Made by a program: the position numbers and the translations under genes. DNA of 50,410 nt from Mesonia aestuariivivens (GTDB lineage: Bacteria > Bacteroidota > Bacteroidia > Flavobacteriales > Flavobacteriaceae), in contig NZ_JAHWDF010000018.1 in the NCBI RefSeq assembly GCF_019311235.1, positions 1 through 50,410 on the forward strand, written 5' to 3'. The notes beneath the pieces were generated by a model. The model was given only the letters and a program-made list of their open reading frames with translations. It ran no database searches and had not been told where the DNA came from. Each line of letters opens with the position of its first letter. Positions within the stretch are counted from its first letter, which is position 1. Below, one piece after another: positions 6,056-46,126 of this stretch.

Positions 6056-6145
6056 CCATTCAACGACAATTAAAATCGATTGATCGAATATAAAGCTGGC
6101 TTAAACGATTAATAGAAATTTTATACTAATAATTATTCATATTTG
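6056..6145 (+). promoter_or_regulatory. LytTR-like box array and -7 element of the NO-sensing operon
   Basis: Three boxes occur at exact 21-bp spacing: CCATTCAACGA (6056), CGATTGATCGA (6077) and GGCTTAAACGA (6098). A -7-like CATATTTG (6138-6145) starts 32 nt after the core C of the last box. Because the regulator encoded at the end of this operon is a LytTR protein, autoregulation is the simplest reading. Confidence 0.6.
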
Positions 6146-6168
6146 TTATAGAAATTAATCTCACTAAA

Positions 6169-6582
6169 ATGACAAATAAACTTAGAATATTACTTATAGA
6201 AGATGATATGATTGAAGTAATGAAACTCAATCGTACCATATCTTCATCTCAACTTCCACACGATGTTATTGAGGTTAAAAATGGAGAAGAAGCTTTAGAG
6301 TTTTTAAAAAGTAATCAGTCCCTACCAGACATTATTCTTTTAGACCTTAACATGCCTAAAATGAATGGCATAGAGTTTTTAAATATATTAAAGAAAGATG
6401 AAATTTTAAGATATTTACCCACTATAATTTTAACAACGTCTGCCAACCAACGAGATATTTTAGCGTGTTATGAAGCAGGAATTGCAGGTTACATTATTAA
6501 GCCTCTTAAATATGAAGACTATGTGGTAAAACTTAAATCACTTTTAGATTACTGGTGTTTAAATGAATTAATTAAAGGTTAA
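6169..6582 (+). CDS. REC-only (CheY-like) response regulator
   Basis: 137 residues consisting of one receiver domain. The acidic pocket is EDD near the start (E11-D13), the phosphoacceptor is Asp59 in IILLDLNMPKMNG, the conserved Thr/Ser region is ILTTSA and the Lys is in YIIKPL. There is no output domain, so it probably acts as a phosphate shuttle or by protein contact. It is the first gene of a seven-gene operon with intergenic gaps of 5 nt or less or overlaps. The H-NOX gene begins 4 nt after its stop. An upstream array of LytTR-like boxes suggests control by the regulator at the operon's end. A related REC-only protein occurs at 47689. Confidence 0.92.
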   Translation: MTNKLRILLIEDDMIEVMKLNRTISSSQLPHDVIEVKNGEEALEFLKSNQSLPDIILLDLNMPKMNGIEFLNILKKDEILRYLPTIILTTSANQRDILACYEAGIAGYIIKPLKYEDYVVKLKSLLDYWCLNELIKG

Positions 6583-6586
6583 TAAG

Positions 6587-7135
6587 ATGAAAGGAATTGT
6601 TTTTACAGAGTTTTTAGAAATGGTCGAAGATAAGTTTGGATTAGAAACGCTAGATTATATCATCACAAATTCAGAACTAGAATCTGAAGGAAGTTATACC
6701 GCTGTGGGAACTTACGATTTTTTTGAAATGCAACAACTCTTAACACATTTAAGTGAAGTTTCTAAAATACCAGTAAATGATCTTATCTATACTTATGGTT
6801 TGTTTTTCTTTAAAACCCTAACTACCCACCACTCAGATATATTTAATTATTATACATCTCCTTTAGATTTAGTTGCATCAATAGAAAACCATATTCACGT
6901 ACAGGTTAGAAAAATATATCCAGATGCAGAACTGCCTAGCTTTACTGTAAAAAAAGAAAATGACCATGAATTATCACTTTTATATAGCTCTGAAAGAGCC
7001 ATGTTCATGTTTGCGAAAGCATTAATGGAAAAAACATTTGAATATTACAAAGAAAATGTCGAAATTAAATACGAATTAATGAATGAACAAGGAACCCAAG
7101 TCAAGTTCTTAATCAAATCGTATGGACCTAATTAA
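6587..7135 (+). CDS. H-NOX heme nitric-oxide-binding sensor
   Basis: 182 residues matching the full-length stand-alone H-NOX (HNOB) domain. The start MKGIVFTEFLEMVEDKFG is typical. The proximal heme ligand is most likely His104 in ENHIHVQVRKIYPDAELP, and the heme-propionate clamp YxSxR is visible as Y133-S-S135-E-R137. Bacterial H-NOX proteins of facultative aerobes bind NO at ferrous heme and control a partner kinase or cyclase in trans. Here the stop overlaps the start of a multi-PAS histidine kinase by 14 nt, which strongly predicts that kinase as partner. No distal-pocket Tyr is evident by eye, which would fit NO rather than O2 binding, but this is not certain without a structural alignment. 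Confidence 0.92.
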   Translation: MKGIVFTEFLEMVEDKFGLETLDYIITNSELESEGSYTAVGTYDFFEMQQLLTHLSEVSKIPVNDLIYTYGLFFFKTLTTHHSDIFNYYTSPLDLVASIENHIHVQVRKIYPDAELPSFTVKKENDHELSLLYSSERAMFMFAKALMEKTFEYYKENVEIKYELMNEQGTQVKFLIKSYGPN

Positions 7136-9488
7136 AAAAGTAGAACTTCTTGAACGCGCTCTAAAGCGCGAAAAAAATGCTAGAAAGAAAGCCGAATCTA
7201 TACTTGAAGATAAATCTTCGGAGCTTTATAAGTTGTCAGAAGCACTTAAAAACTCTAACCAAAAGCTCTCTAAGCACCTAAAGCAAACCACCAATCAATT
7301 AGAAGGGGTATTTACAAATATTATTGATGCTTATATTGTCATAGGCATTGAAGGCTATATTATGAATATGAATAAAGCCGCTATAAAATTGCTCGGGTTT
7401 GATAATAAAGAAGAGAATATTAATGTTTTTAACCTACTCAAGAAAGAATACAGAGAATATACAAAAGAGGCCTTTAAACAATTATATAAAAATGGAACAT
7501 TTTCTAACTACAAAGCAGAACTTATTACTAAAAGCGGTGATGAGAAAGTAGTACAAATAAATGCGAGTCTAATTTATAATGAAGACGGAAAACCAATTGC
7601 GGCGCAAGGTATTGCTCGAGATATTACTAATGAAACACTTCTAAAACAAGAACTACAAGAGCAAAAAAGACAATTAGAAATCATTATGGATAACTCTCCA
7701 ATTGGTATAAGTCTTTCAAAATCCAATGCTGAAGGTTTGACGATTGCCAATAAAACACTGGTAAAACTCTTAGGTTATTCCCGAGATGAATTAAATAATT
7801 TAGATCCAAACTTAATTACTCATCCCGATGATCGTGAATGGTCATTAAAATATTTAGAAGCGTTAAGAAATGGAAAATTAGACCACTACTCCGTAGAAAA
7901 AAGATACATAAAAAAAGACGGTGCTATTATTTGGGTAAAAACTTCAGCTAGAGCAGTTAGAGAAAAAAATAAAAAATATTATTATCAAGTAGCCACTATA
8001 GAAGATATTTCTAAAGAAAAAGAAGCGCTGGAGAAATTAAAAGAATCTCAAAATAGATTAGCAGCACTCATTGTAAATCTACAAACCGGAATTTTACTTG
8101 AAGATGAAAATAGAAATATACTTCTTACCAATGAGCGATTTTGCAAAATGTTTGGGATAAATGCACTCCCTAAAAGTATGATTGGGCAAAATTGTAGCAA
8201 TTCTGCAGAAGAAAGTAAAAAATTCTTTAAAAATCCAGATGGATTTGTTAAACGCATAGAAAAACTTTTAGAAGAAAAAAACACTGCTTTAAATGATCAG
8301 CTTTATTTAGAGGATGGACGCATATTTGAAAGAAATTATATACCTATATATCTTGAAAATGAATATAAAGGGCACCTCTGGAGTTATACAGATGTAACCA
8401 TTCAAAAGAAATATAAAGAAAGTTTAAAAGCCCAAAAAGAAAAATACAGTAGCATCATTGCTAATATGAACCTTGGTCTATTAGAAAATGACTTAGATGA
8501 TATTATTGTTTTTTGTAACCAAAGTTTTTGTGAAATGAGTGGTTATAAAAAAGAAGAACTAATAGGAAAAAAAGCAACCGATCTATTTTTAACTTCAAAA
8601 TCTGAAAAGTTTTATTACGATAGAATAGAAAACAGAAAAAAAGATAAAGGCGATTCTTATGAGTTATCAGTTAAAAACAAAGCAGGAAAAATAAAACATT
8701 GGTTAATAAGTACTGCACCTAATTATGATGTTAAAGGGAAAAAAATTGGGTCTATAGGAATTCATCTTGATATATCTGAAAATAAAGTATTAGAAAAACA
8801 AAAAGAACAATTACTCGTTAGTTTAGAAAAACAAAATGAACAGCTAAACGAATATGCACATATTGTATCTCATGATCTTAAATCACCACTTAGAAATATT
8901 TCTGCTTTATTAAGCTGGACAAAAGAAGATTTTCAAGATAAATTAGGTAAAGATAGTCTTGCTAATCTCGACTTGATGCAAAATAAAGTAGAAAAGATGG
9001 ACTTATTAATAGGTAATATCTTAAAATACTCTAGCATTGACAATGATATATTAATAGAAGAAACTATAGATTTAAACGAATTAATAAACGCTATTAAAGA
9101 TTTAATCTATATACCTGATTATATTTCTATAAGTGTAAAAAACGAACTACCTCATATTAAAGCAGACAAGACCAGAATACAACAAGTTTTTCAAAATTTA
9201 ATTGGCAATGCGGTTAACTATATAGATAAAGAAAAAGGCCTTATAGAAATAGATTACTCTGAAAACAAAACTCATTATATTTTTTCTATAAAAGATAACG
9301 GTATTGGAATTGCTGAAGAACATCATGAAAAAATCTTTAAGATCTTTAACTCTTTAGGCTCTTACGAAAAATCTACAGGTATTGGTTTAAGCATTGTTAA
9401 AAAAGTAGTTCAATTATATAAAGGTAAAGTCTGGTTAGAAAGCGAATTAACTAAAGGAACTACATTTTACTTCAGCATTAAAAAATAA
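7122..9488 (+). CDS. Multi-PAS sensor histidine kinase, predicted H-NOX partner
   Basis: 788 residues without membrane segments, so cytoplasmic. Order: N-terminal coiled coil (about 1-60), then four PAS-like domains (about 62-175, 182-300, 310-430, 440-555), the first, second and fourth with PAC tails and the third more divergent. A HisKA domain follows with phosphoacceptor His584 in IVSHDLKSPLRN, then an HATPase_c domain with N box FQNLIGNAVNY (690-700), G1 DNGIGI and G2 GIGLSIVKK. It overlaps the H-NOX gene by 14 nt and precedes the FIST gene by 4 nt. The second kinase of the operon has a nearly identical catalytic core, suggesting duplication. No receiver domain is attached, so phosphate must go to separate REC or Hpt proteins of the operon. 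Confidence 0.92.
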   Translation: MDLIKKVELLERALKREKNARKKAESILEDKSSELYKLSEALKNSNQKLSKHLKQTTNQLEGVFTNIIDAYIVIGIEGYIMNMNKAAIKLLGFDNKEENINVFNLLKKEYREYTKEAFKQLYKNGTFSNYKAELITKSGDEKVVQINASLIYNEDGKPIAAQGIARDITNETLLKQELQEQKRQLEIIMDNSPIGISLSKSNAEGLTIANKTLVKLLGYSRDELNNLDPNLITHPDDREWSLKYLEALRNGKLDHYSVEKRYIKKDGAIIWVKTSARAVREKNKKYYYQVATIEDISKEKEALEKLKESQNRLAALIVNLQTGILLEDENRNILLTNERFCKMFGINALPKSMIGQNCSNSAEESKKFFKNPDGFVKRIEKLLEEKNTALNDQLYLEDGRIFERNYIPIYLENEYKGHLWSYTDVTIQKKYKESLKAQKEKYSSIIANMNLGLLENDLDDIIVFCNQSFCEMSGYKKEELIGKKATDLFLTSKSEKFYYDRIENRKKDKGDSYELSVKNKAGKIKHWLISTAPNYDVKGKKIGSIGIHLDISENKVLEKQKEQLLVSLEKQNEQLNEYAHIVSHDLKSPLRNISALLSWTKEDFQDKLGKDSLANLDLMQNKVEKMDLLIGNILKYSSIDNDILIEETIDLNELINAIKDLIYIPDYISISVKNELPHIKADKTRIQQVFQNLIGNAVNYIDKEKGLIEIDYSENKTHYIFSIKDNGIGIAEEHHEKIFKIFNSLGSYEKSTGIGLSIVKKVVQLYKGKVWLESELTKGTTFYFSIKK

Positions 9489-9492
9489 AGTT

Positions 9493-10623
9493 ATGAAAAT
9501 TGTACAAGCCTATTTGCATAAAAATAATTGGAATTATTCAATCGAAAAAAAAGAAATTAACAACCCTTTAGTATTAGTGTTTGGAGAAAGAAAAACACTA
9601 CAAGATCAAAAAGTAATAGATGCTATAAATGATGAGTTTCCATATAAAAATATAATTTTCGGGTCCACCGCTGGAGAAATTTTAGGAGCGAGAGTTTTAG
9701 AAAATTCTGTAACAGTTACTGCGTTAGAATTTCAAAAAAGTGATTATCTTATTAAAACTGCTAATATTTTAGACTTTAATAAAGATTCTAAAACTTTAGG
9801 AGAAAACCTTATAAAGCAACTCCCCGCAAAAAACTTAAAACACATTTTCATAATATCTGAAGGTAGTTATGTTAATGGAAGTGCACTCATCGAAGGGATT
9901 GAAAAACATAATTCTAAACTGGTGAAAATTTCTGGTGGTTTATGTGGTGATAATGAACGTTTTGATAAAACATTAGTTTCGTTTCAAGAGAATCCAAAAG
10001 AAGGGGAAGCAGTAATTATTGGGTTATATGGCGAAGAATTAGAAATAACATGCGCTAGCTCTGGAGGATGGATACCTTTTGGACCAGAGCGAATTATCAC
10101 AAAATCTGAAGGAAATATTCTTTATGAAATAGACGGCGTTCCTGCGTTAGATATTTACAAGAAATATTTAGGAGATAAAGCTCTAGATTTGCCTCACTCT
10201 GCCCTACTCTTCCCATTAAACGTTAAAGCAAAAGGGAAATCATACCCTGTCGTAAGAACCATTTTAAATATAAACGAAGAAGATAAATCTATGATTTTTG
10301 CTGGAGATGTGCCAGTTCAATCTCAAGTACAACTAATGATGGCATCTATTGATGCTATTGTTGAAGGCGCAGGAACAGCAGCAAAAAAAGCTTTAGAAGA
10401 CAGAAAAAAAGCTCCAGAGGTTGCGCTACTTATTAGTTGCATTGGTAGAAAATTAGTCATGGATCAGCAAACTGAAGAAGAAATTGAAGAAGTTTTAACC
10501 ACTATAGGCAATCAAACCCCTTGTACTGGATTTTACTCTTATGGTGAAATAGCTCCACATTTAAATGAAGAAAATTGCGAGTTACATAACCAAACAATGA
10601 CGTTAACTTTAATAAGTGAATAA
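9493..10623 (+). CDS. FIST-domain sensor, NosP-like
   Basis: 376 residues with an N-terminal FIST domain (about 30-225, with the GSTAGE motif at 58-63 and SGGLCGDN) and a FIST_C domain (about 225-370, ending GFYSYGEIAPH and CELHNQTMTLTL). No signal peptide or membrane segment is present. FIST proteins next to histidine kinases include NosP, a heme protein that senses nitric oxide. The heme ligand cannot be identified reliably from sequence alone, so NO sensing is an inference; small-ligand sensing such as amino acids is the alternative for FIST domains. The stop overlaps the start of the second kinase by one base (TAATG), pointing to that kinase as its partner. Confidence 0.88.
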   Translation: MKIVQAYLHKNNWNYSIEKKEINNPLVLVFGERKTLQDQKVIDAINDEFPYKNIIFGSTAGEILGARVLENSVTVTALEFQKSDYLIKTANILDFNKDSKTLGENLIKQLPAKNLKHIFIISEGSYVNGSALIEGIEKHNSKLVKISGGLCGDNERFDKTLVSFQENPKEGEAVIIGLYGEELEITCASSGGWIPFGPERIITKSEGNILYEIDGVPALDIYKKYLGDKALDLPHSALLFPLNVKAKGKSYPVVRTILNINEEDKSMIFAGDVPVQSQVQLMMASIDAIVEGAGTAAKKALEDRKKAPEVALLISCIGRKLVMDQQTEEEIEEVLTTIGNQTPCTGFYSYGEIAPHLNEENCELHNQTMTLTLISE

Positions 10624-11654
10624 TGAGTTCTTTACTGAATAGACAAATAAGAAAATTTTTACCCCAAGAATTTGCTGAAGACGAAAGAATTCAGAATTTT
10701 TTAGAGGCTGTAAAAAAATCCTATCTTATTCAAGAAGAGCAATTTAATATGTTGCAAAGAGCTATGCAAATAAGCTCTGAAGAATTATTTGAAGCCAATC
10801 AAAAACTACAAGAAGAAAGTAAAGCACAGCAAGAAATATTAAATAGTTTAAATTTAGTAATTCAATCACTTCAACTTAAAAAACCAGAAAAAAATAAAAA
10901 TTTAGAGGTTATAGATTTAGCTAATTACTTAAAAGATCAAAGTGAAGAGCTTAATAGAATAAGCAAAGATCAAGAACTTTTATTAAAAAATTTAGAGCAA
11001 AAAAATGAAATTCTTTCAGACTATGCTCATATGGTTTCTCACGATCTAAAATCTCCATTAAGAAGCATTAATACCTTAATAAATTTCATTTTAGAAGACA
11101 ATCCAAAACTTGCAGAAAATTCTAAAGAATACCTTGATCTTATTCTTAAAAATCTTGAAAAAATGGATGCTTTAATTAGCGGAATTTTAAACTATTCAAC
11201 ATTAGAAGAGAACCAACTTAATGCAGAAAAAATAGATTTAAACAAACTGCTTAAAGCTATTAAACAATCTATATATAAGCCACCAAACGTAAAAATTAAA
11301 ATTTACGATAATTTTCCTGTGATTACAGGAGATAAAATAAGAATTCAGCAGCTATTTCAAAACATCATACAAAATGCCATTAAAAGTATTGATAAAGGCG
11401 AAGGCATCATAAAAATAGATTTTTTAGATAAATTAAGTTTTTGGGAATTTTCTATTCAAGATAATGGAAGAGGAATTCCTAAACATCAATTTGAAAAAAT
11501 ATTCAAAATTTTTGAGAAGATTGATGACAATAATAATTCTACTGGTATTGGACTTTCAATTGTAAAGAAAATTATAGATTTTTACGGAGGGAAAATATGG
11601 TTAGAAAGTAAATTAGATCAAGGAACTACATTTTTTTTCACACTTCCAAAATAA
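10623..11654 (+). CDS. Soluble histidine kinase, predicted FIST/NosP partner
   Basis: 343 residues. The N-terminal 130 residues are helical and coiled-coil-like with no recognisable sensory domain, consistent with an input delivered by a separate protein. HisKA follows with His140 in MVSHDLKSPLRS, and HATPase_c has N box FQNIIQNAI, G1 DNGRGI and G2 GIGLSIVKK. The start overlaps the FIST stop (TAATG), and an Hpt gene follows after 5 nt. This arrangement resembles NosP with its associated kinase NahK in Gammaproteobacteria, although here the kinase lacks PAS domains. The core closely resembles that of the PAS kinase two genes upstream, so the two may share phosphotransfer partners. Confidence 0.9.
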   Translation: MSSLLNRQIRKFLPQEFAEDERIQNFLEAVKKSYLIQEEQFNMLQRAMQISSEELFEANQKLQEESKAQQEILNSLNLVIQSLQLKKPEKNKNLEVIDLANYLKDQSEELNRISKDQELLLKNLEQKNEILSDYAHMVSHDLKSPLRSINTLINFILEDNPKLAENSKEYLDLILKNLEKMDALISGILNYSTLEENQLNAEKIDLNKLLKAIKQSIYKPPNVKIKIYDNFPVITGDKIRIQQLFQNIIQNAIKSIDKGEGIIKIDFLDKLSFWEFSIQDNGRGIPKHQFEKIFKIFEKIDDNNNSTGIGLSIVKKIIDFYGGKIWLESKLDQGTTFFFTLPK

Positions 11655-11659
11655 AAATC

Positions 11660-11983: not shown

Positions 11984-11988
11984 ATTTT

Positions 11989-12711
11989 ATGAACTGTATT
12001 ATTATTGATGATGAAGAAATGGCAAGAGCCATAATTGAGCAATTTACTTTGCAGAACGAAAATCTCTCTTTAGATGCTCAATTTTCAGATGCAATTCAAG
12101 CCATCAAATACTTAAATCAAAACCATGTAGATCTTATTTTTTTAGATATACATATGCCAACCTTTAGTGGTTTTGATTTAATTCAAACTTTAAAAAACCC
12201 GCCAAATATAATTTTAACAACTTCAGATAGAAATTTTGCTATAGAGGCATTTGAGTATGATTGTATAAAAGATTATCTCGTTAAACCAGTCACTAAAGAT
12301 AGGTTTGACAAAGCTGTAAATAAAGCATTAAATGCTGCAACAGCTACACCCTCTGTAACAAATAACTCTGATCATAAACAAGAAGGTAAACAAGAGTCTG
12401 AAAATGATTTGTATGTTAATATTGATCGTAGACTTATTAAAATAGATATTCCTAGTATTTATTTAATTGAAGCTAAAGGTGATTATATACTCATTAAAAC
12501 CTTTGGTAAAAATTACACGGTGCATTCTACTCTAAAAAAGATCGAAGATAAACTACCCAAAGATACTTTTTTGAAAATCCATAGATCTTTTATTATCAAT
12601 GTTAAAAAAATTATTGATATTGAAGATAATAGTGTTTTAATAGAAAAAGATGTTATCCCAGTAAGCAGATCAAATCGTCCAGAGTTAATGAAAAGATTGA
12701 ATCTACTATAA
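11989..12711 (+). CDS. LytTR-family response regulator
   Basis: 240 residues: an N-terminal receiver domain (acidic pocket DDEE at 7-10, phosphoacceptor Asp53 in LIFLDIHMP, Lys in YLVKPV), a Gln/Asn/Ser-rich linker (about 118-138) and a C-terminal LytTR DNA-binding domain (about 140-240) with IYLIEAKGDYILI and FLKIHRSFIINV. LytTR proteins bind direct repeats of about 9-11 bp spaced one to two helical turns apart. Such repeats, 21 bp apart, occur upstream of this operon, immediately after this gene and at several other promoters in the window. It is the last gene of the operon and the natural candidate to bind them; this is untested. Confidence 0.93.
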   Translation: MNCIIIDDEEMARAIIEQFTLQNENLSLDAQFSDAIQAIKYLNQNHVDLIFLDIHMPTFSGFDLIQTLKNPPNIILTTSDRNFAIEAFEYDCIKDYLVKPVTKDRFDKAVNKALNAATATPSVTNNSDHKQEGKQESENDLYVNIDRRLIKIDIPSIYLIEAKGDYILIKTFGKNYTVHSTLKKIEDKLPKDTFLKIHRSFIINVKKIIDIEDNSVLIEKDVIPVSRSNRPELMKRLNLL

Positions 12712-12799
12712 TTCAACGTTTTAAATTAACCAATGGTCGATAGTTTACATTTAATCAACGAAATATAAATAAATAGCATGTAAAACTTACTTAAATTTG
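12709..12799 (+). promoter_or_regulatory. LytTR-like box array and promoter of small RNA copy 1
   Basis: Boxes TAATTCAACGT (12709), CCAATGGTCGA (12730) and TTAATCAACGA (12751) are spaced exactly 21 bp apart. The -7 element TAAATTTG (12792-12799) matches TAnnTTTG perfectly and begins 33 nt after the last core C. No good TTG -33 element is seen, which would suit an activator-dependent promoter. Confidence 0.6.
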
Positions 12800-12802
12800 A
12801 AC

Positions 12803-12874
12803 TAAGGTTAAGTAATTTTTATTTCATAAGTTTTTATTGGTTTTTAGCCGGGAGAGGAGTCTTCCGGCTTTTTT
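12803..12874 (+). ncRNA. Predicted small RNA, copy 1 of 3
   Basis: A transcript of about 70 nt is predicted from just after the TAAATTTG element to the T tract of the hairpin at 12846. It has an AU-rich 5' part (AGTAATTTTTATTTCATAAG) and a terminator stem AGCCGG / CCGGCT whose loop contains GAGAGGAG. It has no ORF of note. The same body is repeated twice downstream. The purine-rich loop could pair with CUCC-type sequences. The hairpin could also serve as the terminator of the signalling operon. Confidence 0.5.
12846..12874 (+). terminator. Terminator 1 (operon end / small RNA 1)
   Basis: GC-rich stem AGCCGGGA / TCTTCCGGCT followed by six T. Confidence 0.85.
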
Positions 12875-12920
12875 GTGTTCTCAACAAATCTATCTTATAA
12901 CATTCATATATAAAATTTAT

Positions 12921-13011
12921 AGGTTAATCGGGTTGATCTGACAGCTGAACTAAACCAAGTGCATATCCATCGAAAATGATCTCTAAGCAATACATAACTT
13001 AACGATCTTTG
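12921..13011 (+). promoter_or_regulatory. LytTR-like box array and promoter of small RNA copy 2
   Basis: Boxes AGGTTAATCGG (12921), CAGCTGAACTA (12942) and ATATCCATCGA (12963) lie 21 bp apart. The -7-like GATCTTTG (13004-13011) starts 33 nt after the last core C, as in copy 1. Confidence 0.55.
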
Positions 13012-13014
13012 AAA

Positions 13015-13087
13015 TGAGATTTAGTAATTTTTATTTCATAAGTTTTTATTGGTTTTTGGCCGGGAGAGGAGTCTTCCGGCTTTTTTT
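13015..13087 (+). ncRNA. Predicted small RNA, copy 2 of 3
   Basis: The body runs from after GATCTTTG to the T tract at 13081-13087. It is practically identical to copy 3 and differs from copy 1 mainly in the first 15-20 nt and in one base of the stem (GGCCGG instead of AGCCGG), with the loop unchanged. Confidence 0.5.
13058..13087 (+). terminator. Terminator 2
   Basis: Stem GGCCGGGA / TCTTCCGGC with seven T; repeat of terminator 1. Confidence 0.85.
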
Positions 13088-13133
13088 ATGTTCTCAAAAA
13101 ATCTATCTTATAACATTCATATATAAAATTTAT

Positions 13134-13224
13134 AGATTAATCGGGTTGATCTAACAGCTGAACTAAACCAAGTGCATTTCCATCGAAAATGATCTCTAAG
13201 CAACACATAACTTAACGATCTTTG
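13134..13224 (+). promoter_or_regulatory. LytTR-like box array and promoter of small RNA copy 3
   Basis: Boxes AGATTAATCGG (13134), CAGCTGAACTA (13155) and ATTTCCATCGA (13176) lie 21 bp apart. GATCTTTG (13217-13224) begins 33 nt after the last core C. Spacing is kept exactly from copy to copy. Confidence 0.55.
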
Positions 13225-13227
13225 AAA

Positions 13228-13299
13228 TGAGATTTAGTAATTTTTATTTCATAAGTTTTTATTGGTTTTTGGCCGGGAGAGGAGTCTTCCGGCTTTTTT
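13228..13299 (+). ncRNA. Predicted small RNA, copy 3 of 3
   Basis: Third copy of the about 70-nt AU-rich body plus terminator hairpin. The next downstream element is another box array belonging to the T9SS protein gene. Confidence 0.5.
13271..13299 (+). terminator. Terminator 3
   Basis: Stem GGCCGGGA / TCTTCCGGC followed by six T. Confidence 0.85.
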
Positions 13300-13320
13300 A
13301 TTATATAAGATTTCAATTTA

Positions 13321-13410
13321 ATTTTTATCTTATAAAATAAACCATTCAACGCTCTATATCAAACTCTTATCGAAAATTTATGTACCTAAGAAACTTCAAA
13401 CATAAATTTG
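13321..13410 (+). promoter_or_regulatory. LytTR-like box array and promoter of the T9SS protein gene
   Basis: Boxes ATTTTTATCTT (13321, weak), CCATTCAACGC (13342) and ACTCTTATCGA (13363) lie 21 bp apart. A perfect -7 TAAATTTG (13403-13410) starts 32 nt after the last core C and 18 nt before the ATG at 13428. Confidence 0.6.
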
Positions 13411-13427
13411 TAACAAATACTATAATT

Positions 13428-15863
13428 ATGAAAAAACTAATACAACTTTCGCTTTTATTTATGGTTCAATTTTGCTTGAGCCAAAATTATAGTTTTTTAG
13501 GTTCATATAATTATAACGGTACACCATTGTATTTAGAACCAGTTGATGATACAATCTCTCCACAAACTATGCAAATGATTCAAGACATCGTTCCTGAAAG
13601 TTATCCTGTGCCAGAATATAATCCTCATTATATTTCTTCAGGTTATGATACCGATATTATTTTAGATGAACCAGCAGATGTTTGGGTTACTTTTGTACAA
13701 GAAGGTGCTGGCTATAAAAATGTGCTTGGTTTCTATTCTTATGATATAAACAACCCACAAACCACTACTCCTACTCCATCAGAAATTACTATAATTTTTC
13801 CTAATGTTTCTGCTAGCGGTTCTGGCGGCGAACTGGTAGCTGGTAATAAAGTAAAAATAGGCTCTTTTCCTGCAAATACAGGAATTGGTTGGGTACTTTT
13901 AGCAGATGGTTGGGATGATGCTACATCCAGTGTTACTGCAGGAAACTGGCAGTTATTTTCTAATCCAGATTTTAATCCAGAAGCTAATGAAAAACTTAGG
14001 TATCATAATGTACTTATTTCAGACCCTGAAAATGAAAGAATTATTTTAGGTTTTGAAGATATTAGAAGAGATTATAATTCTTGTGATAATGATTTTAATG
14101 ATGCATTATTCTATGTTAGCGCAAATCCATATTCAGCATTAAGAACATCAAATTATGCAGATACAGAAAGTGCTAATGATGTAAGTTCTGGTAATTCTGG
14201 TGGATTAGAAAGTAATGGAAATTTGGCTGAATTAATTGCCAAAAGAAATTTTACACGCTTGAAAAAAAATACTTTTGCTCATAAAAAAAGCTTACAACAA
14301 ACTTTTGTTAAACCTCTAATTACAAGTAGAAATGCGAATACTACTTCTAATTTATCAAACTTGTTCCCTAGCTCTGGTATGTTTGGTACAGAAGAAGCTT
14401 TACAATCTACACCTATAGATCTTTTACAAATTACAAACGCTACAGATGTCTTTTCTGTAGATTATTATGAAAATGAAAATCGTGTTGCTGCTGCTTTAGC
14501 TACTAAAACAATAGGAAGTGTTTATAACCATTCTAAGATGATTTGTGACCGTTTAAATGGTTCAACCTTAGAAGATATAAGACAAATCACCCTACAAGAA
14601 CATGACTTGGTGATGATTAAAGTAAGAAGAGCTAATGAAGAAATTGAATATGCCATTTTATTTTCAGTCACAGAAAATAATCAGCAATATAACTTGCACA
14701 GCTATTGGAATATTTTTCAATACCCTATGGAAGACTATACTAATTTTCAAATTTGGGGATCAACCATGGGTCAGGTAAGCCATATTACTAATCATATTTT
14801 AAATGAATACCAAGACGCAAGTAATTTAACTAGTAACGAAATGTTAGATAGAATTCCTTCTGTTTTTATAAAAAAAGGAACTTATCATCACGGACAAATA
14901 ACTTTAGATATCGTAAATAAAACATTAGACAACCAATTACAAATTACAGCAAACGCTAGAATAAATGAATTAGCTGGAGAAACAGAAATGGCAAATAGTG
15001 TTTCTTTATCTGGAGAATATGAAGAACAAATTACATTTACTACAGGAAGCCTTTTTGATATTAATTTAACTCTAGTAGGAAATAATTCTCCACAAGCTGA
15101 TGCTTTATATCTAGCAGATGGCCCTTGGGGATTAGATTACAGTGAAAATGAATCTTTAATTACAAATTTTGAAATAGAGAACAATAGTAATTACACAGGA
15201 AATGGTTATGCAGTAGAAAGAAACCCTAGTGTGAGTGGAGATGTTTTAGGAACGGTAAATTTATTTAGAACGATAATGCCAGGAGAACTTAGTTTTAATG
15301 CAAGTAGCTTTGGTGCTATAGAATTTAATATTAAAAACAATTTACCTGTAGAATTAATTTTAGTTACTAATGATTTATCTGATTGGAGTCAAAGGTTTAC
15401 TTATCAAATTCCTGCTAACAACGAGTTTACAACCTATAATATTTCTTTTACAGATTTTACAAATTCATTAAATGAAAGTTTAACTACTGAAAATTTAAAA
15501 ACAATTGTGTTTTCTACACAAGGAAATTATCAAAACCTTGAAACTTTTAATTTAGCTGTAAATCAAGTTGCCTTTACAGAAGAAACTTTAAGTGTTGACA
15601 ATGATGAATCAAAAAACAATCTAAAACCTATAAATTACCCCAATCCATTTCAAACTACAACAACATTGCAATTTGCAGAAGAAACAACTTCAGCTCAAAT
15701 TAGAATCTATGACATACTGGGAAGAATTATCTATGAAAAAGAACACGCTGTCATCGATAGAAAAATTAATTTGAATTTAGCTAGTTTACCGTCTGGAGTT
15801 TACGAATGTATAGCCGTAACCAATACAAAAGATGAGTTAAAGCTAAGGATGATGAAGATGTAA
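13428..15863 (+). CDS. Secreted DUF4114 protein with T9SS type A sorting domain
   Basis: 811 residues from the ATG at 13428. This start is preferred over the upstream in-frame ATG at 13380 because it begins a clean signal peptide (MKKLIQLSLLFMVQFCLSQ) and because the -7 element lies between the two. A DUF4114-like domain ends with the acidic, possibly calcium-binding SCDNDFNDALFYV motif (about 220). The middle 300-700 is unrecognised; it has a segment about handling input (LVMIKVRRANEEIEYAILFS) and a DUF-like beta-rich part. The last 80 residues, from YPNPFQTTTTLQF through IYDILGRIIYE to LPSGVYECIAV, form a type IX secretion C-terminal domain. Export to the cell surface or medium is expected, perhaps as an adhesin or matrix protein. 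A terminator follows. Confidence 0.85.
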   Translation: MKKLIQLSLLFMVQFCLSQNYSFLGSYNYNGTPLYLEPVDDTISPQTMQMIQDIVPESYPVPEYNPHYISSGYDTDIILDEPADVWVTFVQEGAGYKNVLGFYSYDINNPQTTTPTPSEITIIFPNVSASGSGGELVAGNKVKIGSFPANTGIGWVLLADGWDDATSSVTAGNWQLFSNPDFNPEANEKLRYHNVLISDPENERIILGFEDIRRDYNSCDNDFNDALFYVSANPYSALRTSNYADTESANDVSSGNSGGLESNGNLAELIAKRNFTRLKKNTFAHKKSLQQTFVKPLITSRNANTTSNLSNLFPSSGMFGTEEALQSTPIDLLQITNATDVFSVDYYENENRVAAALATKTIGSVYNHSKMICDRLNGSTLEDIRQITLQEHDLVMIKVRRANEEIEYAILFSVTENNQQYNLHSYWNIFQYPMEDYTNFQIWGSTMGQVSHITNHILNEYQDASNLTSNEMLDRIPSVFIKKGTYHHGQITLDIVNKTLDNQLQITANARINELAGETEMANSVSLSGEYEEQITFTTGSLFDINLTLVGNNSPQADALYLADGPWGLDYSENESLITNFEIENNSNYTGNGYAVERNPSVSGDVLGTVNLFRTIMPGELSFNASSFGAIEFNIKNNLPVELILVTNDLSDWSQRFTYQIPANNEFTTYNISFTDFTNSLNESLTTENLKTIVFSTQGNYQNLETFNLAVNQVAFTEETLSVDNDESKNNLKPINYPNPFQTTTTLQFAEETTSAQIRIYDILGRIIYEKEHAVIDRKINLNLASLPSGVYECIAVTNTKDELKLRMMKM

Positions 15864-15888
15864 TGTTAAGCGTTGTTATTGTCGTGAT

Positions 15889-18487: not shown

Positions 18488-18536
18488 AATTTAAGTGTTT
18501 CAATTAGACAAGAGCAATTTACATATACTATGGAGA

Positions 18537-18606
18537 TATTTCATCTATAGAAAATATCCGTTCATCGAAACTAAGCAAATTTTCATTGAATTAAGGTAGA
18601 TATTTG
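18537..18606 (+). promoter_or_regulatory. LytTR-like box pair and promoter of the STAS/flippase unit
   Basis: TATTTCATCTA (18537) and CCGTTCATCGA (18558) lie 21 bp apart, with a degenerate third box ATTTTCATTGA at 18579. The -7-like GATATTTG (18599-18606) begins 33 nt after the core C of the second box. CCGTTCATC differs from the AlgR consensus CCGTTCGTC at one base. The divergent TPR gene may share the site. Confidence 0.6.
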
Positions 18607-18964: not shown

Positions 18965-20221
18965 ATGCTAACTTCTCAATTCTCTATACGTAACATTAAT
19001 TTTAAATCTGAACAAGTTTTTATGCTTAGCGCCCTATTGGTTAATGGCGGTAATTATTTATACAATTTAATCTTGGGTAGAATGTTAGGTCCCACCCAAT
19101 TTGCTGATGCTGCAATCTTAATAACTTTACTGATGGTACTTTCATTTATGGCAATGACATTTCAGTTAACTGTTGCTAAGTTTACAGCAGGTTCTGTAGA
19201 TGAAGACCAAACTGTATTTGTGAATTTTCTAAAAAAAATAAGTTTATTTATAGGCGTTATTTTAGGAATAGTCATTGCTCTTTTTGCAGAGAACCTTCAA
19301 ATACTATTACAAACTAGTTCTAAAGCGATGTTTTATTTTTTTGCAGCTGGTATACCTTTATATTTTTTAATGAGTGTAAATAGAGGTTACTATCAAGGAA
19401 ACAAAAACTTTTTTAAACTCTCTGTCACTTATCAAGGAGAAATGTTAAGTAGGTTAGGTATTACCATAATTCTATTGTGGACTTTAAATACTGACAGTTC
19501 TCTATTAATAGCCATAGGGATTTTAGCATCTTTTATCTTTGGTCTACTTCCTTATAAAAAAACAACTTCAACCTCAATAAAAAAGTCGGTATTAGATAAT
19601 AAAAACACCAAAAGTGTTTTACTTTTTATAAGCATTACGGCGTTTTATGAATTTACTCAAATCATTATAAACAACAGTGATATTATTTTAGTGAAACATT
19701 ATTTTGAAGCTTATGAAGCGGGACTTTATGCTTCTTTAGCCTTAATTGGCAGGATGGTGTATTTTGTAGCTTGGATGTTTGTGATGATTTTACTGCCAAC
19801 GGTTGTGAAAATGAAAAAAAATGGAGAAAACACCTTACCAGTATTTTTTAAATACCTGAGCTTAATAAGCTTATTAGCCGGAAGCATTGTTGTAGCTACT
19901 TATTTTATTCCCGAATTTATTATTCAGCTTATGTTTGGGAAAGCTTACTTAGCGATGGCACCTCTGTTATGGAAATATGCATTAGCAACTTCTCTATTTG
20001 CTATTTCTAATGTATTTGTGTACTACTTTTTATCTTTAGAAAAGTATATTCCTGTAATTGCTTCAGGAGTGTTTGGAATTGCTCAAGTATCTTTAATTAT
20101 ATTTTTTCACAAAAGCCTAGAACAAGTAGTTGAAATTCAAATTATTGCTATGGTATTACTATTGGTTATTCAATTAATACTATTCTTTTATCAGCAAAAT
20201 AAAAATGTTGAACTAAAGTAA
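18965..20221 (+). CDS. MOP-superfamily polysaccharide flippase
   Basis: 418 residues with about 12 hydrophobic segments. The N-terminal pattern GNYLYNLILGRMLGPTQFADAA is typical of Wzx/PST-type oligosaccharide flippases (Polysacc_synt family). It would move lipid-linked sugar units or polymer across the inner membrane. It lies 22 nt after the STAS-like gene and next to a GT4 glycosyltransferase. With the TPR/barrel protein and the soluble GT4 enzyme, the set is reminiscent of the Pel system (PelG-like flippase, PelF-like GT, PelB-like porin), but orthology is not claimed: other Pel genes are not seen. Confidence 0.85.
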   Translation: MLTSQFSIRNINFKSEQVFMLSALLVNGGNYLYNLILGRMLGPTQFADAAILITLLMVLSFMAMTFQLTVAKFTAGSVDEDQTVFVNFLKKISLFIGVILGIVIALFAENLQILLQTSSKAMFYFFAAGIPLYFLMSVNRGYYQGNKNFFKLSVTYQGEMLSRLGITIILLWTLNTDSSLLIAIGILASFIFGLLPYKKTTSTSIKKSVLDNKNTKSVLLFISITAFYEFTQIIINNSDIILVKHYFEAYEAGLYASLALIGRMVYFVAWMFVMILLPTVVKMKKNGENTLPVFFKYLSLISLLAGSIVVATYFIPEFIIQLMFGKAYLAMAPLLWKYALATSLFAISNVFVYYFLSLEKYIPVIASGVFGIAQVSLIIFFHKSLEQVVEIQIIAMVLLLVIQLILFFYQQNKNVELK

Positions 20222-20273
20222 ACGTCCACTCATCGAAGAAAAATAATTTTAAGCATTTAAATAAAGAAATTTA
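20205..20273 (+). promoter_or_regulatory. LytTR-like box pair and weak -7 of the GT4 gene
   Basis: ATGTTGAACTA (20205, inside the end of the flippase gene) and CCACTCATCGA (20226) are 21 bp apart. GAAATTTA sits at 20266, at the same 32-nt offset as elsewhere, but is a poor -7 match. The weakest of the arrays at the -7 position. Confidence 0.42.
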
Positions 20274-20310: not shown

Positions 20311-21507
20311 ATGAAACTTGCTATCGTAACCGCCTTTCCTCCTAGTAAAGTAACCTTAAATGAATATGGTTACCACTTAGTAAAAAATTTCGCACAAAAA
20401 AAAGAAATAGATGAATTGGTTTTAATCACAGATGTAACCGAAGATCCTAAACAATTAGATTTTGACACACAAGGATGTAGAATCACCGTAAAGGATTGTT
20501 GGAAGTTTAACAGCTATAAAAACATCTATACCATTTACAAAACCATTCAGCAGGAGAAGCCAGACGCTATCTTATTTAACTTACAGTTTATGAAATTTGG
20601 TGATAAAAAAGTTGCTGCAGCACTTGGATTATTATTACCAATGATCTTTAAACTTAAAGGTTTAGCTACTATTGTGTTATTACATAATATTTTAGAGCAA
20701 GTAGATTTAGGTAGCGCCGGGTTCACTTCAAATAAATTAATGCAAAAAGCTTATAATTTTATAGGTACAAGTCTAACTAAATTAGTTTTAAAAGCAGATA
20801 TTGTAGCTGTCACTATTAGTAAATATGTAACTATTTTAGAAGAAAAATATAAAGCAGATAATGTGGTGCTTATACCTCACGGTTCTTTTGAAACTCCACC
20901 ATTACCTAATTTTAATTTACCCGAAGGACCCAAGAAGGTAATGACTTTTGGAAAATTTGGAACGTATAAAAAAGTAGAAATTTTAATTGAGGCTGTAGAA
21001 CAAATTAGAGCTAGAACACAAGAAGATATTGAAATAGTAATTGCTGGTACAGACAGCCCAAATACACCAGGTTATTTAGCTGAAGTTAAAGAGCAGTATA
21101 AAAATGTATCTAATATTACATTTACGGGTTACGTAGAAGAATCTGACGTACCTGTAATTTTTGGAGAAAGTGCTGTAGTTGTTTTTCCTTATACATCAAC
21201 GACGGGAAGCTCTGGAGTTTTACATCAAGCAGGAAGTTATGGCAAAGCTGTAGTTTTACCAGACTTGGGAGACTTGGGTATTTTAGTTAGAGAAGAAGGA
21301 TATAGAGGTCAGTTTTTTGACCCTAATAAAACAGAATCTTTAGCAGAAGCTATTGAAGATATTATTTGTAACGATGGTTATAGAAGAAAGCTAGCTAAAG
21401 CTAATTATGAAGCTGCTTGTTCTTTACCTATGACTACAATTACAGATATGTATTTGCAAAAATTTAATAAATTGATAGAAGCAAAATTAACTGAAGTATT
21501 AGTTTGA
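20311..21507 (+). CDS. Family 4 glycosyltransferase
   Basis: 398 residues with the GT-B fold of the GT4 family: N-terminal nucleotide-fold start MKLAIVTAFPPSKV with EYGYHLVKNFA, a C-terminal domain beginning KKVMTFGKFGTYKKVEILIEA, the strand IVIAGTDSP, and the donor-binding segment FPYTSTTGSSGVLHQAGSYGKAVV, which replaces the usual E-x7-E with a Ser-rich version. No membrane segments are seen, so it acts in the cytoplasm, adding sugars from a nucleotide donor to a growing chain. Its 3' end overlaps that of the convergent glycoside hydrolase gene by 9 nt. It has its own predicted LytTR-like promoter. Confidence 0.88.
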   Translation: MKLAIVTAFPPSKVTLNEYGYHLVKNFAQKKEIDELVLITDVTEDPKQLDFDTQGCRITVKDCWKFNSYKNIYTIYKTIQQEKPDAILFNLQFMKFGDKKVAAALGLLLPMIFKLKGLATIVLLHNILEQVDLGSAGFTSNKLMQKAYNFIGTSLTKLVLKADIVAVTISKYVTILEEKYKADNVVLIPHGSFETPPLPNFNLPEGPKKVMTFGKFGTYKKVEILIEAVEQIRARTQEDIEIVIAGTDSPNTPGYLAEVKEQYKNVSNITFTGYVEESDVPVIFGESAVVVFPYTSTTGSSGVLHQAGSYGKAVVLPDLGDLGILVREEGYRGQFFDPNKTESLAEAIEDIICNDGYRRKLAKANYEAACSLPMTTITDMYLQKFNKLIEAKLTEVLV

Positions 21508-27355: not shown

Positions 27356-27414
27356 CAGAAATAATAATTTAATTATTCACGATAAAGATAACTACTGCGA
27401 AAAGTTACAACAAT

Positions 27415-27505
27415 TTATTGGTCTATAGAAAACTTCCATTCATCTACAGAAAAACATAAGATAATCTAATTACCTGAAATTCAATAAACCTTTCAGCTAC
27501 ATTTG
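27415..27505 (+). promoter_or_regulatory. LytTR-like box array and promoter of the REC-GT2 gene
   Basis: TTATTGGTCTA (27415) and CCATTCATCTA (27436) are 21 bp apart, and AAGATAATCTA follows 22 bp later (27458). A perfect -7 TACATTTG (27498-27505) starts 32 nt after the last core C. It lies between divergent genes, so it could also act on the GT-C operon. Confidence 0.58.
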
Positions 27506-27548: not shown

Positions 27549-28745
27549 ATGAAAATCTTAACTATAGACGATCAGCAATTAGTCTTATTACCTTTAGAAA
27601 AAAAGTTAACAGAGTTAGGCTATGAAGTAACAACGTTAGTAGATGCAAATAGAGCTAAAGAAGTGTACAGCAGTTTTTTACCAGATTTAGTAATTGTAGA
27701 CATCAATATGCCTCAGGTTTCTGGATTAGAAATTATAAAGTATATTAAGTATGAAAAGAAACACAATACCCCAATTATGGTGTTATCAGGTAATACTGAT
27801 GATCATTTAATCGTTAAAGCTTTTGAAATGGGTATTGAAGATTATATGAAAAAACCTTTAAGCCTAGAAGAAGTTTGTGCGAGAGTAAAAAGACTTATAG
27901 GGGCTTCATATGGTAGTGAGAGTACTACCAAAACATTTTCTAAAACTATTATTGAAAAAAGATGTGTTGGGGTGGTCATCCCATGTTATAACGAAGAAGA
28001 ACGATTAATGAGTAAGGAGTTTTTAGACTTTGTAGAAAGTCATTCTGGTTATCACTTATGTTTTGTTAATGATGGCAGCAAAGACAATACCTTACAAATT
28101 TTAGAAAAACTAAGAAGAGGAAGAGAACATTATATTAATGTGTATGATTGCCCTAAAAATGGAGGGAAAGCAGAAGCGGTTAGATTAGGAATGCTACATA
28201 TGGCTAAATTTGAAGATTTAGATTACATAGGCTTTTTAGATGCCGATTTATCTACAGATTTACAAGATTTTGATGCTTTAGTAAACACAATAGAATCGTC
28301 AGATTTTAAGATTGTTAGCGGTTCAAGAATTAGCAGAATGGGTGCAGATATTACTAAAGAATCTGCAAGAAAGATTATAAGCTTAACCATTAACTTTATT
28401 ATTAGAACCATCTTGAAAATGAACTTTAAAGACACTCAATGCGGTGCAAAGATTATGAACAAAGAGATCATAGAAATTGCATTTCAACAAAAATTTGTGA
28501 CCAAATGGTTGTTTGATGTAGAAGTGTTTATGAGAATGAAACAGCACTTCGGAGCTAAAAAAGCCCAAAAATATATCTGTGAACAACCTCTAAAACGATG
28601 GATACATGCAGATGGCTCTAAACTTTCTATGAAAGATTCTATAAAAATTATTTTTCAATTAGGAGAAATAGCTTGGAAGTATAATTTTAAAAAAAAAGAT
28701 AAATCAGCTTACCTTATAAAAAGTACCCCAGAAGTTTCATTATAA
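27549..28745 (+). CDS. Receiver domain fused to family 2 glycosyltransferase
   Basis: 398 residues. Residues 1-120 are a complete REC domain (DDQ at 7-9, phosphoacceptor Asp51 in LVIVDINMP, Lys in YMKKPL). After a short linker comes a GT2 domain (about 138-380) of the dolichol-phosphate-mannose-synthase type: VVIPCYNEEERL, FVNDGSKDNT, the donor-binding Asp-x-Asp at 231-233 (GFLDADLS) and the acceptor-site region near DTQCGAKIMNK. No membrane helices are present at the C terminus. The fusion suggests that sugar transfer is switched by phosphorylation, presumably from kinases encoded elsewhere in this region. The REC active site appears intact. It has its own LytTR-like promoter and a terminator follows. 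Confidence 0.9.
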   Translation: MKILTIDDQQLVLLPLEKKLTELGYEVTTLVDANRAKEVYSSFLPDLVIVDINMPQVSGLEIIKYIKYEKKHNTPIMVLSGNTDDHLIVKAFEMGIEDYMKKPLSLEEVCARVKRLIGASYGSESTTKTFSKTIIEKRCVGVVIPCYNEEERLMSKEFLDFVESHSGYHLCFVNDGSKDNTLQILEKLRRGREHYINVYDCPKNGGKAEAVRLGMLHMAKFEDLDYIGFLDADLSTDLQDFDALVNTIESSDFKIVSGSRISRMGADITKESARKIISLTINFIIRTILKMNFKDTQCGAKIMNKEIIEIAFQQKFVTKWLFDVEVFMRMKQHFGAKKAQKYICEQPLKRWIHADGSKLSMKDSIKIIFQLGEIAWKYNFKKKDKSAYLIKSTPEVSL

Positions 28746-29736: not shown

Positions 29737-29743
29737 CATTCGA

Positions 29744-38081: not shown

Positions 38082-38159
38082 AAATTATAAAGCTAAATAA
38101 GAGGGGCAAGATAAAGTGAAGAAAATTGGCAATGAAAACTTTATTGTTGGAATTTAGTT

Positions 38160-42143: not shown

Positions 42144-42162
42144 TTAACTCTACATATATTTC

Positions 42163-42193
42163 AAAAAGGCGTGATATTAATCACGCCTTTTTT
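42163..42193 (+). terminator. Rho-independent terminator
   Basis: AAAAAGGCGTGAT / ATCACGCCTTTTT hairpin with T tract 20 nt after the stop. Confidence 0.88.
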
Positions 42194-42262
42194 GTTTTAC
42201 CAATTCAAATTATAACTTAAAAAATTATTCGTTTCACTATATAATCTTTACTTTTGAGACGG

Positions 42263-42338
42263 CTTTAGGGGTATTCTAAAAAGAATTGAGAGAGTCCCTT
42301 TGAACCTGATTCGGTTAGCACCGGCGTAGGGAAAAGTT
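42263..42338 (+). promoter_or_regulatory. TPP riboswitch (THI element)
   Basis: Conserved landmarks in order: TTTAGGGGTAT, a short variable stem, GAGAGAGTCCCTTTGAACCTG (the CUGAGA-like and ACCUGAU pyrophosphate/pyrimidine core), then CGGTTAGCACCGGCGTAGGGAA. It lies about 70 nt upstream of thiM and should repress the thi operon when thiamine pyrophosphate is plentiful. A TAATCTTTA -7-like element at about 42240 could start the leader. Confidence 0.93.
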
Positions 42339-42405
42339 ATCATTACAGTTCTTCATATTCTTGAGGAAGTATCCTTCAGCCATTTATAAAACTCTAAAAA
42401 ATTAA

Positions 42406-45312: not shown

Positions 45313-45314
45313 AA

Positions 45315-45345
45315 GAAAAAGGGAAGTTTAAATACTTCCCTTTTA
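45315..45345. terminator. Bidirectional terminator between tenA and the WrbA-like gene
   Basis: AAAAGGGAAGT / ACTTCCCTTTT hairpin with A and T runs on either side, serving both converging genes. Confidence 0.85.
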
Positions 45346-45351
45346 GAATAT

Positions 45352-45951
45352 TTATTTATTTATTTTTTCTGCGATTTCTAATGTTCTTTTCACTTGAAAA
45401 CTAATGGCTTGTTTGTGTTTTCCAGTAAGATCTGTACCACCAACTACACTAAAGCCGTAAGGATTCCCTCCTACTTCAAAAATAATTGGATCTGCATATC
45501 CTGGAGCAGCTACTATAGCCCCCCAGTGCATCATAGTCTTGTAAAGTGAAAGTAAAGTACCTTCTTGCCCACCATGAGGATTTCCGGCACTTGTCATTCC
45601 GCTAACTACTTTATTAACTAATTTACCGTTTTGCCAAAGCCCACCAGTAGAGTCTATTAAACTTTTTACTTGAGAAGGAGCATCTCCATAACGAGTAGGA
45701 AAGCTAAAAATTATAGCATCTGCCCAATTTAAATCATTTACTGTTGCTGTTTCAATATCTTTGGTAGCTTTGTAATGCTCATACCAATCTTCATTTTGCT
45801 TAATCACATTTTCTGGTACTGTTTCTTCAAATCTTCTAAAACGTATATTTTCTACTCCTAAATTTTTAGCTGCTGTTTCTGCTTCTCTAGACAAATTATA
45901 ATTAGTCCCTGTTGAGCTATAATAAATGATAGCTAGTTTTAAATTTTCCAT
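45352..45951 (-). CDS. wrbA: WrbA-like NAD(P)H:quinone oxidoreductase
   Basis: 199 residues from the ATG at 45951; an earlier in-frame start would add a 12-residue leader without support. Flavodoxin-like fold with the FMN phosphate loop YYSSTGTNYNLSRE (less canonical than S-x-T/Y-G-x-T), the isoalloxazine-contacting PTRYGDAPSQVKSLIDSTGGLW and the region SAGNPHGGQEGTLLSLYKTMMHWG, which is diagnostic of WrbA. It reduces quinones by two electrons, limiting oxidative stress. It converges with tenA over a shared terminator. Assignment to the WrbA family is firm; the physiological substrate is not. Confidence 0.9.
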   Translation of the reverse strand: MENLKLAIIYYSSTGTNYNLSREAETAAKNLGVENIRFRRFEETVPENVIKQNEDWYEHYKATKDIETATVNDLNWADAIIFSFPTRYGDAPSQVKSLIDSTGGLWQNGKLVNKVVSGMTSAGNPHGGQEGTLLSLYKTMMHWGAIVAAPGYADPIIFEVGGNPYGFSVVGGTDLTGKHKQAISFQVKRTLEIAEKINK

Positions 45952-46035
45952 GATTATTATTTTTATTTTGAAGATAACACTAAACAAAAGCTTATACTAA
46001 AAACAATATTTAAAATTTTTATAAAAATATGATAA

Positions 46036-46126
46036 CAAGTTAGCGTTTCAATTTTACTTTTCGACTTCACAAAAAAACTACTTACCGAAAAAATTGATAA
46101 ATTAATGTGGAATCAACTTAAATTTG
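46036..46126 (+). promoter_or_regulatory. LytTR-like box array and promoter of the second kinase/REC pair
   Basis: CAAGTTAGCGT (46036), CTTTTCGACTT (46057) and CTACTTACCGA (46078) lie 21 bp apart. A perfect -7 TAAATTTG (46119-46126) begins 33 nt after the last core C. Individual boxes are more divergent than elsewhere, but the geometry is the same. Confidence 0.45.

Follow-up and report, generated by a model that had tools for sequence, protein, structure and literature searches.

The window analysed here is a 50,410-nucleotide stretch of the Mesonia aestuariivivens genome (Flavobacteriaceae; GCF_019311235.1, contig NZ_JAHWDF010000018.1, positions 1–50,410, forward strand; genome 3.33 Mb, 99.47% complete), in which nine promoters carry arrays of short boxes ahead of a sensor operon, three putative short RNA genes, a gene for a secreted DUF4114 protein, polysaccharide genes and a distal sensor kinase gene (Table 1). 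The operon encodes, in order, a single-domain receiver (REC), an H-NOX sensor, a multi-PAS histidine kinase, a FIST protein, a second kinase, a 107-amino-acid (aa) phosphotransfer protein (Hpt) and a REC-LytTR response regulator, as assigned by a Pfam scan and, for Hpt, by fold; its H-NOX, FIST and Hpt genes went unmentioned in an earlier note on this DNA. In this marine bacterium and many of its relatives, the shared promoter layout very likely defines one regulon under the control of the operon's own DNA-binding protein, the LytTR regulator at 11989. Numbered labels denote genomes (G, with G000 the window's own), fetched loci (L) and contigs (C).

Box pairs locked in position relative to the -7 element

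All nine arrays sit where the earlier note had placed them, with 21-bp steps and a single one of 22 bp, and the distance from the core C of a box to the TAnnTTTG-like element, rechecked on the window sequence, is 32–33 bp; the element is perfect at 12792, 13403, 27498 and 46119 and poor at 20266, again as described. The pair spacing and the placement before the -7 element are consistent with LytTR operators, and the earlier note placed the box one base from the AlgR site.

Lone boxes are not enriched in the window (12 matches to CCATTCATCGA with at most two mismatches, against 8.25 expected), whereas spaced pairs are, and the signal therefore lies in the paired arrangement. From 16 sites in the LytTR-orthologue loci of other genomes, with no window site among them, a 35-bp two-box matrix was built; its seeds were chosen by eye with the motif of the earlier note in mind, and these curated seeds replaced expectation-maximization on whole loci, which had drifted into GC-rich coding sequence. 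The window contains 15 matches to this matrix scoring above 10; in 100 Markov shuffles, the mean count was 2.8 and the highest 7. The nine promoters account for 11 of the 12 best matches, each of these 11 on the forward strand, and the remaining one lies on the reverse strand at 41285, inside an open reading frame (ORF; 38556–42143).

A 71-position profile, trained on 26 sites from 20 other genomes with the window's own excluded, places eight of the nine promoters at ranks 1–8 of the whole 3.33-Mb genome (E 3.3e-6 to 0.0113), all on the window contig and the forward strand, so that strong sites are confined to that contig. The ninth promoter, ahead of 13428, is missing among the 50 genome matches of the profile at E up to 10; it combines a weaker pair with a perfect -7 element. 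Among the training sites of matrix and profile are counterparts of the promoters of DUF4114/short RNAs, REC, STAS and the flippase; those of 20311, 27549 and 46215 have no counterpart in training and thus provide the cleanest tests. The next matches in the genome, C23:204749 (E 0.0133, matrix score 9.5) and C19:10790 (E 0.073, matrix score 14.6), are intergenic, correctly oriented and weak, and are possible minor targets at most. The former (G000:C23:204749-204820; L132:5749) has a good first box (ACCATTCATCTATACTTTATT) and a second box that is off by one; a membrane-channel-like ORF lies about 280 bp downstream of it.

The -7 element was excluded from the 35-bp matrix. In 26 of the 33 sites of relatives that score above 15, TAnnTTTG (at least five of its six fixed bases) nevertheless lies exactly 27 or 28 bp past the 35-mer, and no other offset between 0 and 45 has more than two such matches. 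A held-out set was formed from 76 of 80 named loci, four having been dropped for containing profile-training sites (26 in total); this screen addressed the profile-training sites and did not extend to one matrix seed from G051. These 76 loci hold 262 sites scoring above 18, against 0–1 in five rounds of shuffling, and 258 of the 262 lie on the strand of the LytTR regulator. The -7 element follows these sites at 27 or 28 bp in 118 cases and at 48 or 49 bp, as in three-box arrays, in 79, with at most 11 at each other offset. In Flavobacterium psychrophilum, TAnnTTTG spans -12 to -5 (PMC9723704), which puts the core of the promoter-proximal box near -44/-45; the next box would sit about two turns further upstream. 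Chance matching in AT-rich sequence, with which the lack of enrichment of single boxes would agree, is refuted by the held-out tests, the shuffles, the genome ranks and the -7 distance, as well as by the co-occurrence and the target recurrence described below, and we give it next to no weight.

Co-occurrence with the LytTR regulator and recurrent targets

Across 299 genomes of the family, with E cut-offs of 1e-70 for the LytTR orthologue and 1e-4 for the motif, 112 have the orthologue, 87 the motif and 84 both (Fisher 2e-45), and the motif occurs in 3 of the 187 genomes without the orthologue. With the training genomes removed, it is present in 71 of 97 orthologue genomes against the same 3 of 187 (1e-40). 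Of these three exceptions (G132, G032 and G046), G132, which has the motif and no orthologue at this cut-off, encodes a 52%-identical LytTR protein beside REC, H-NOX, a PAS kinase and Hpt. H-NOX is found in 105 of the 299 genomes, 98 of which have the LytTR orthologue. The motif is kept in 9 of the 14 LytTR genomes that lack H-NOX, and in one of the seven H-NOX genomes without the orthologue, namely G132; on this split, the motif tracks LytTR rather than H-NOX.

The genome of the window has four LytTR genes, and G011 retains boxes at a locus with no LytTR ORF left, both of which would suit boxes read by a paralogous LytTR or by an unrelated protein of the same cluster. We consider such a reader distinctly improbable: motif presence follows the 11989 orthologue, genomes that have other LytTR proteins only (for example, G001 and G005) lack the motif at E 1e-4, and the sites of G011 can be relics because its operon has decayed, with REC and remnants of the H-NOX and PAS kinase genes found there. 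Sites persist beside a broken operon in G012 as well, and the two loci (L111 and L112) present a pattern as after recent loss of the regulator.

Target genes were counted over 119 loci, training loci included, each homologue, identified by its first 60 residues, entering once and a site being accepted up to 520 bp upstream. By this count, a site precedes REC in 89 of 99 homologues, DUF4114 in 56 of 61, the flippase in 28 of 31, STAS in 18 of 20, the glycosyltransferase in 15 of 23 and REC-GT2, a receiver fused to a family-2 glycosyltransferase, in 7 of 9. Several of these target genes have retained their boxes in other genera. No site precedes operon-internal or neighbouring control genes: Hpt (0/99), LytTR (0/106), FIST (0/53), the PAS kinase (0/59), the second kinase (0/66), TPR (0/52), GH2-like (0/18) and Big-like (0/14). 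The 34 of 81 obtained for H-NOX are spill-over, because the REC gene ahead of it is short. Small samples gave 2 of 4 for orf15984 and 1 of 3 for a formate/nitrite transporter. Of the remaining ORFs 200 aa or longer, 21 of 349 have a site; five of these open like UDP-glucose/GDP-mannose dehydrogenases, one of the five having been checked with Pfam, and two appear Wzc-like by eye only, Pfam giving no match for the one tested. The comparative data, both the co-occurrence (84/112 against 3/187) and the shared targets, support what the earlier note had put forward as a coherent regulon of the LytTR protein at 11989.

Table 1. Promoters, genes and predicted RNAs of the putative regulon in the window.
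Feature	Position	Strand	Basis
Sensor-operon promoter: three boxes (6056, 6077, 6098) and -7-like CATATTTG (6138-6145)	6055..6145	+	
Single-domain receiver (REC), operon gene 1	6169..6582	+	Pfam PF00072, E 1.8e-22
H-NOX haem NO-binding sensor (predicted)	6587..7135	+	Pfam HNOB, E 2.1e-36
Multi-PAS histidine kinase	7122..9488	+	Pfam
FIST protein, NosP-like	9493..10623	+	Pfam FIST N and FIST C
Second histidine kinase	10623..11654	+	Pfam HisKA and HATPase_c
Hpt phosphotransfer protein (candidate), 107 aa	11660..11983	+	Conserved His, predicted fold
REC-LytTR response regulator, proposed box reader	11989..12711	+	Pfam LytTR PF04397, E 1.3e-20; Response_reg
Short RNA 1 promoter: box array and perfect -7 (12792-12799)	12708..12799	+	Matrix, profile
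Short RNA 1 with hairpin terminator (predicted)	12804..12876	+	
Short RNA 2 promoter: box pair and -7 GATCTTTG	12941..13011	+	Matrix, profile
Short RNA 2 with hairpin terminator (predicted)	13016..13088	+	
Short RNA 3 promoter: box pair and -7 GATCTTTG	13154..13224	+	Matrix, profile
Short RNA 3 with hairpin terminator (predicted)	13229..13301	+	
DUF4114 promoter: box pair and perfect -7 (13403-13410)	13341..13410	+	Matrix score 12.4
Secreted DUF4114 protein, type IX secretion tail	13428..15863	+	Pfam DUF4114 and Por_Secre_tail
STAS-flippase promoter: box array and -7 GATATTTG	18536..18606	+	Top genome match, E 3.3e-6
STAS-like protein	18637-18942	+	Pfam, slightly under STAS cut-off
Polysaccharide flippase	18965-20221	+	Pfam
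Glycosyltransferase promoter: box pair and poor -7 GAAATTTA	20204..20273	+	E 1.8e-5
Glycosyltransferase	20311..21507	+	Pfam Glycos_transf_1
REC-GT2 promoter: three boxes (last step 22 bp) and perfect -7 TACATTTG (27498-27505)	27414..27505	+	
REC-GT2, receiver fused to family-2 glycosyltransferase	27549..28745	+	Pfam
Promoter of 46215 kinase: box pair and perfect -7 TAAATTTG (46119-46126)	46056..46126	+	Matrix, profile
PAS histidine kinase	46215-47699	+	Pfam
Receiver	47689-48093	+	Pfam

The DUF4114 start was placed by its position relative to the -7 element, the longest ORF beginning at 13380, and the first box of the glycosyltransferase promoter falls within the 3' end of the flippase gene. 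REC-GT2, a box-driven enzyme, might also come under direct control by the relay. In the whole window, Rfam matches only a group II intron (D1-D4, 3727-3906, reverse strand) and a TPP riboswitch (42257-42349, forward strand).

Predicted short RNA genes beside the regulator

The three units that follow the LytTR gene include two tandem copies of 213 bp that are 97% identical, and all three share a 91-bp stretch. In each unit, boxes and a -7 element precede a leader of about 42 nucleotides, whose core is nearly invariant, and a 10-bp hairpin accompanied by a T run, folding having been done on one copy. Across ten sequences, both sides are changed in four of the ten hairpin pairs. As predicted transcription units, the short RNAs are well supported by sequence. 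A 5' hairpin in RNAalifold model R2 is missing from the single-sequence fold and was not relied on, and in the short-RNA region Rfam yields sub-threshold chance matches only, with no family at its gathering score. The position of the units between LytTR and the DUF4114 gene, with terminators at their ends, would also fit transcription attenuators ahead of DUF4114 instead of separate small RNAs. We find this unlikely, as DUF4114 has its own boxes and a perfect -7 element beyond the last terminator, and the RNA core is retained in relatives with other downstream genes (for example, G009 and G013).

A covariance model detects, at 56 bits or more, one to three short RNAs in each of 7 of 16 Mesonia genomes: alongside an H-NOX-bearing LytTR operon in G000, G002, G003, G009 and G014, and also in Mesonia phycicola (G013), whose operon has no H-NOX, and in G011 with its decayed operon. 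The RNA is missing from G006 (LytTR, no operon) and from G012 (broken operon). Second LytTR copies in two of these genomes (G002:C3:37074-37982 and G014:C19:35006-35918), 74% and 73% identical to that of the window, are each followed by a more divergent short-RNA copy. Scanning the 299 family genomes, a draw that excluded the other six short-RNA-positive Mesonia, gave a strong match in the window's own genome alone and 38–39.5 bits in four others.

At the same place, other genera have box-driven RNA-plus-terminator units of differing sequence. In G132 (L259:11441-12070, C1), three near-identical 238-bp tandem units, unrelated in sequence to the Mesonia RNA, adjoin the H-NOX/LytTR operon, and single units occur in Winogradskyella (L210, L218 and L256) and Bizionia (L192); the short RNAs of Winogradskyella, Bizionia and G132 perhaps form one wider, weakly kept family. 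Of 212 distinct sites, 10 passed a strict filter, Mesonia contributing six; the filter reports two of the three G132 units, and L192 and L210 were picked out by eye in addition. The leaders at L218 (site 8737) and L192 (about 411 bp after LytTR) share ATAGCAAGGTAA, and the G132 RNA (L259, 11441) has TTAATAGCAA.

A search for antisense targets of the RNA core gave 44 forward and 38 reverse pattern matches against 35 and 40 in the control, without enrichment. A duplex search over 27 start regions of the window, with a chance expectation of about 0.25 matches among them, produced a lead at the 20311 glycosyltransferase (2 of 200 shuffles equal); the other Mesonia examined do not have it, and it was rejected.

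A predicted nitric-oxide relay and its relation to known systems

The closest solved structures to the H-NOX protein are 6bde and 6bdd (E 4e-58), a nitric oxide (NO)-binding H-NOX of Kordia algicida. The window protein aligns with these solved H-NOX structures and contains YSSER, a YxSxR-type motif, and NHIHV in the proximal-His region, where the haem-ligand histidine is assigned by residue numbering; it is thus an H-NOX-domain protein with predicted NO binding and kinase control. The 107-aa protein has no Pfam match; its His56 is invariant in 35 sequences, its AlphaFold2 model has a pLDDT of 92.6, and the top Foldseek match is the Hpt 3myf (TMq 0.77, E 0.024). The nearest solved folds are thus Hpt, yet no Foldseek match reaches E 0.001; the model predicts the four-helix Hpt fold with a conserved histidine. 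Among 67 operons with full flanks, 62 have H-NOX and/or FIST (both in 38, H-NOX only in 16, FIST only in 8); four have neither, and one has none of the searched operon genes upstream. A tblastn tally of second kinases was left unused, being unreliable because the query also matches the PAS kinase.

The explanation that we favour, with a probability of about 0.77, is that the boxes are direct-repeat operators of the 11989 LytTR protein, acting in an NO relay with polysaccharide and short-RNA output. NO would be sensed by H-NOX and/or the NosP-like FIST protein; kinase activity would be altered and, as operon content and the Hpt fold suggest, phosphate would pass via Hpt (11660) to the LytTR receiver. 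Phosphorylated LytTR would then bind the box pairs, in the layout observed, and presumably activate sigma-A promoters. The output would comprise the operon itself (feedback), the secreted DUF4114 protein, the STAS, flippase and glycosyltransferase genes for polysaccharide, a second sensor kinase and, in Mesonia, one to three short RNAs, the effect on this observed gene set being a prediction. The window operon may accordingly be described as a putative NO phosphorelay with direct transcriptional output and feedback, in which LytTR binding and the NO signal are predicted steps and the signal is the weakest.

Several observations weigh against this explanation. Twenty-eight of the 112 orthologue genomes have no site at E 1e-4, the best matches in the same-genus G003 and G006 are weak (0.055 and 0.022), and G032 and G046 have one motif match each with no operon in the fetched stretch. 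As to the signal, the FIST protein scores 69.9 bits (NCBIfam E 2e-19), far under the 450-bit cut-off of the NosP equivalog NF041558. In M. phycicola, boxes and a short RNA occur with neither H-NOX nor FIST found in the operon, and 5 of the 67 full-flank loci, M. phycicola included, lack both; NO is therefore not the sole signal everywhere. These loci would favour the same LytTR regulon responding to oxygen, redox or another ligand through H-NOX/FIST, or through the PAS kinase, and H-NOX forms that respond to oxidation are described in a review (PMC8738867). Such a signal seems rather unlikely: the H-NOX of the window keeps the proximal-His region and the YxSxR-type motif, and 62 of 67 loci have H-NOX and/or FIST.

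The arrangement is like that of AgrA, LytTR Regulatory Systems and AlgR, in which a LytTR regulator is paired with direct repeats that lie ahead of a promoter at a spacing of about two turns. The AgrA repeats lie upstream of P2 and P3, the promoter-proximal ones centred near -60 (PMC4227749), and LytTR Regulatory Systems are autoregulated (PMC6193735), as would be the case here through the boxes at the regulator's own operon. Unlike in these systems, the boxes of the window stand at a locked distance from TAnnTTTG in Bacteroidota sigma-A promoters, the operon promoter has a three-box array, and the regulator belongs to a predicted phosphorelay that includes Hpt and H-NOX/FIST. The presence of several short RNAs under a single regulator recalls small RNAs such as Qrr, which exist in multiple copies and are controlled by a two-component system; the short RNAs differ from known small-RNA families in their lack of an Rfam assignment. 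The comparison points to the site beside the regulator as a recurrent location for small RNAs.

In Proteobacteria, H-NOX or FIST/NosP genes adjoin those of kinases, phosphotransfer proteins and response regulators governing biofilm traits, and the relays described act mostly via cyclic di-GMP (c-di-GMP) enzymes or quorum-sensing parts (PMC8738867). The genome of the window has no match to GGDEF (PF00990), for which 8 of 14 control genomes are positive (EAL and PilZ were not searched), and an output via c-di-GMP is therefore unlikely. No description of an H-NOX/LytTR regulon in Bacteroidota was found in titles and abstract starts of the open-licence literature, subscription papers not being covered. 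We tentatively propose, at somewhat less than even odds, that Flavobacteriaceae have a c-di-GMP-free NO pathway running from H-NOX/FIST through a phosphorelay to LytTR and a compact surface-polysaccharide regulon with one promoter code, to which unrelated short RNA genes have been added separately genus by genus, as tandem triplets in Mesonia and G132. Our analysis yields a promoter code that can be read from sequence, a list of targets for this predicted H-NOX/FIST phosphorelay, and a possible route from a gas signal to surface polysaccharide in GGDEF-less bacteria. As in the proteobacterial relays, H-NOX and FIST genes stand beside those of kinases, Hpt and response regulators; unlike in them, H-NOX and FIST share one operon, and the predicted endpoint is a LytTR transcription factor in a genome without a GGDEF domain.

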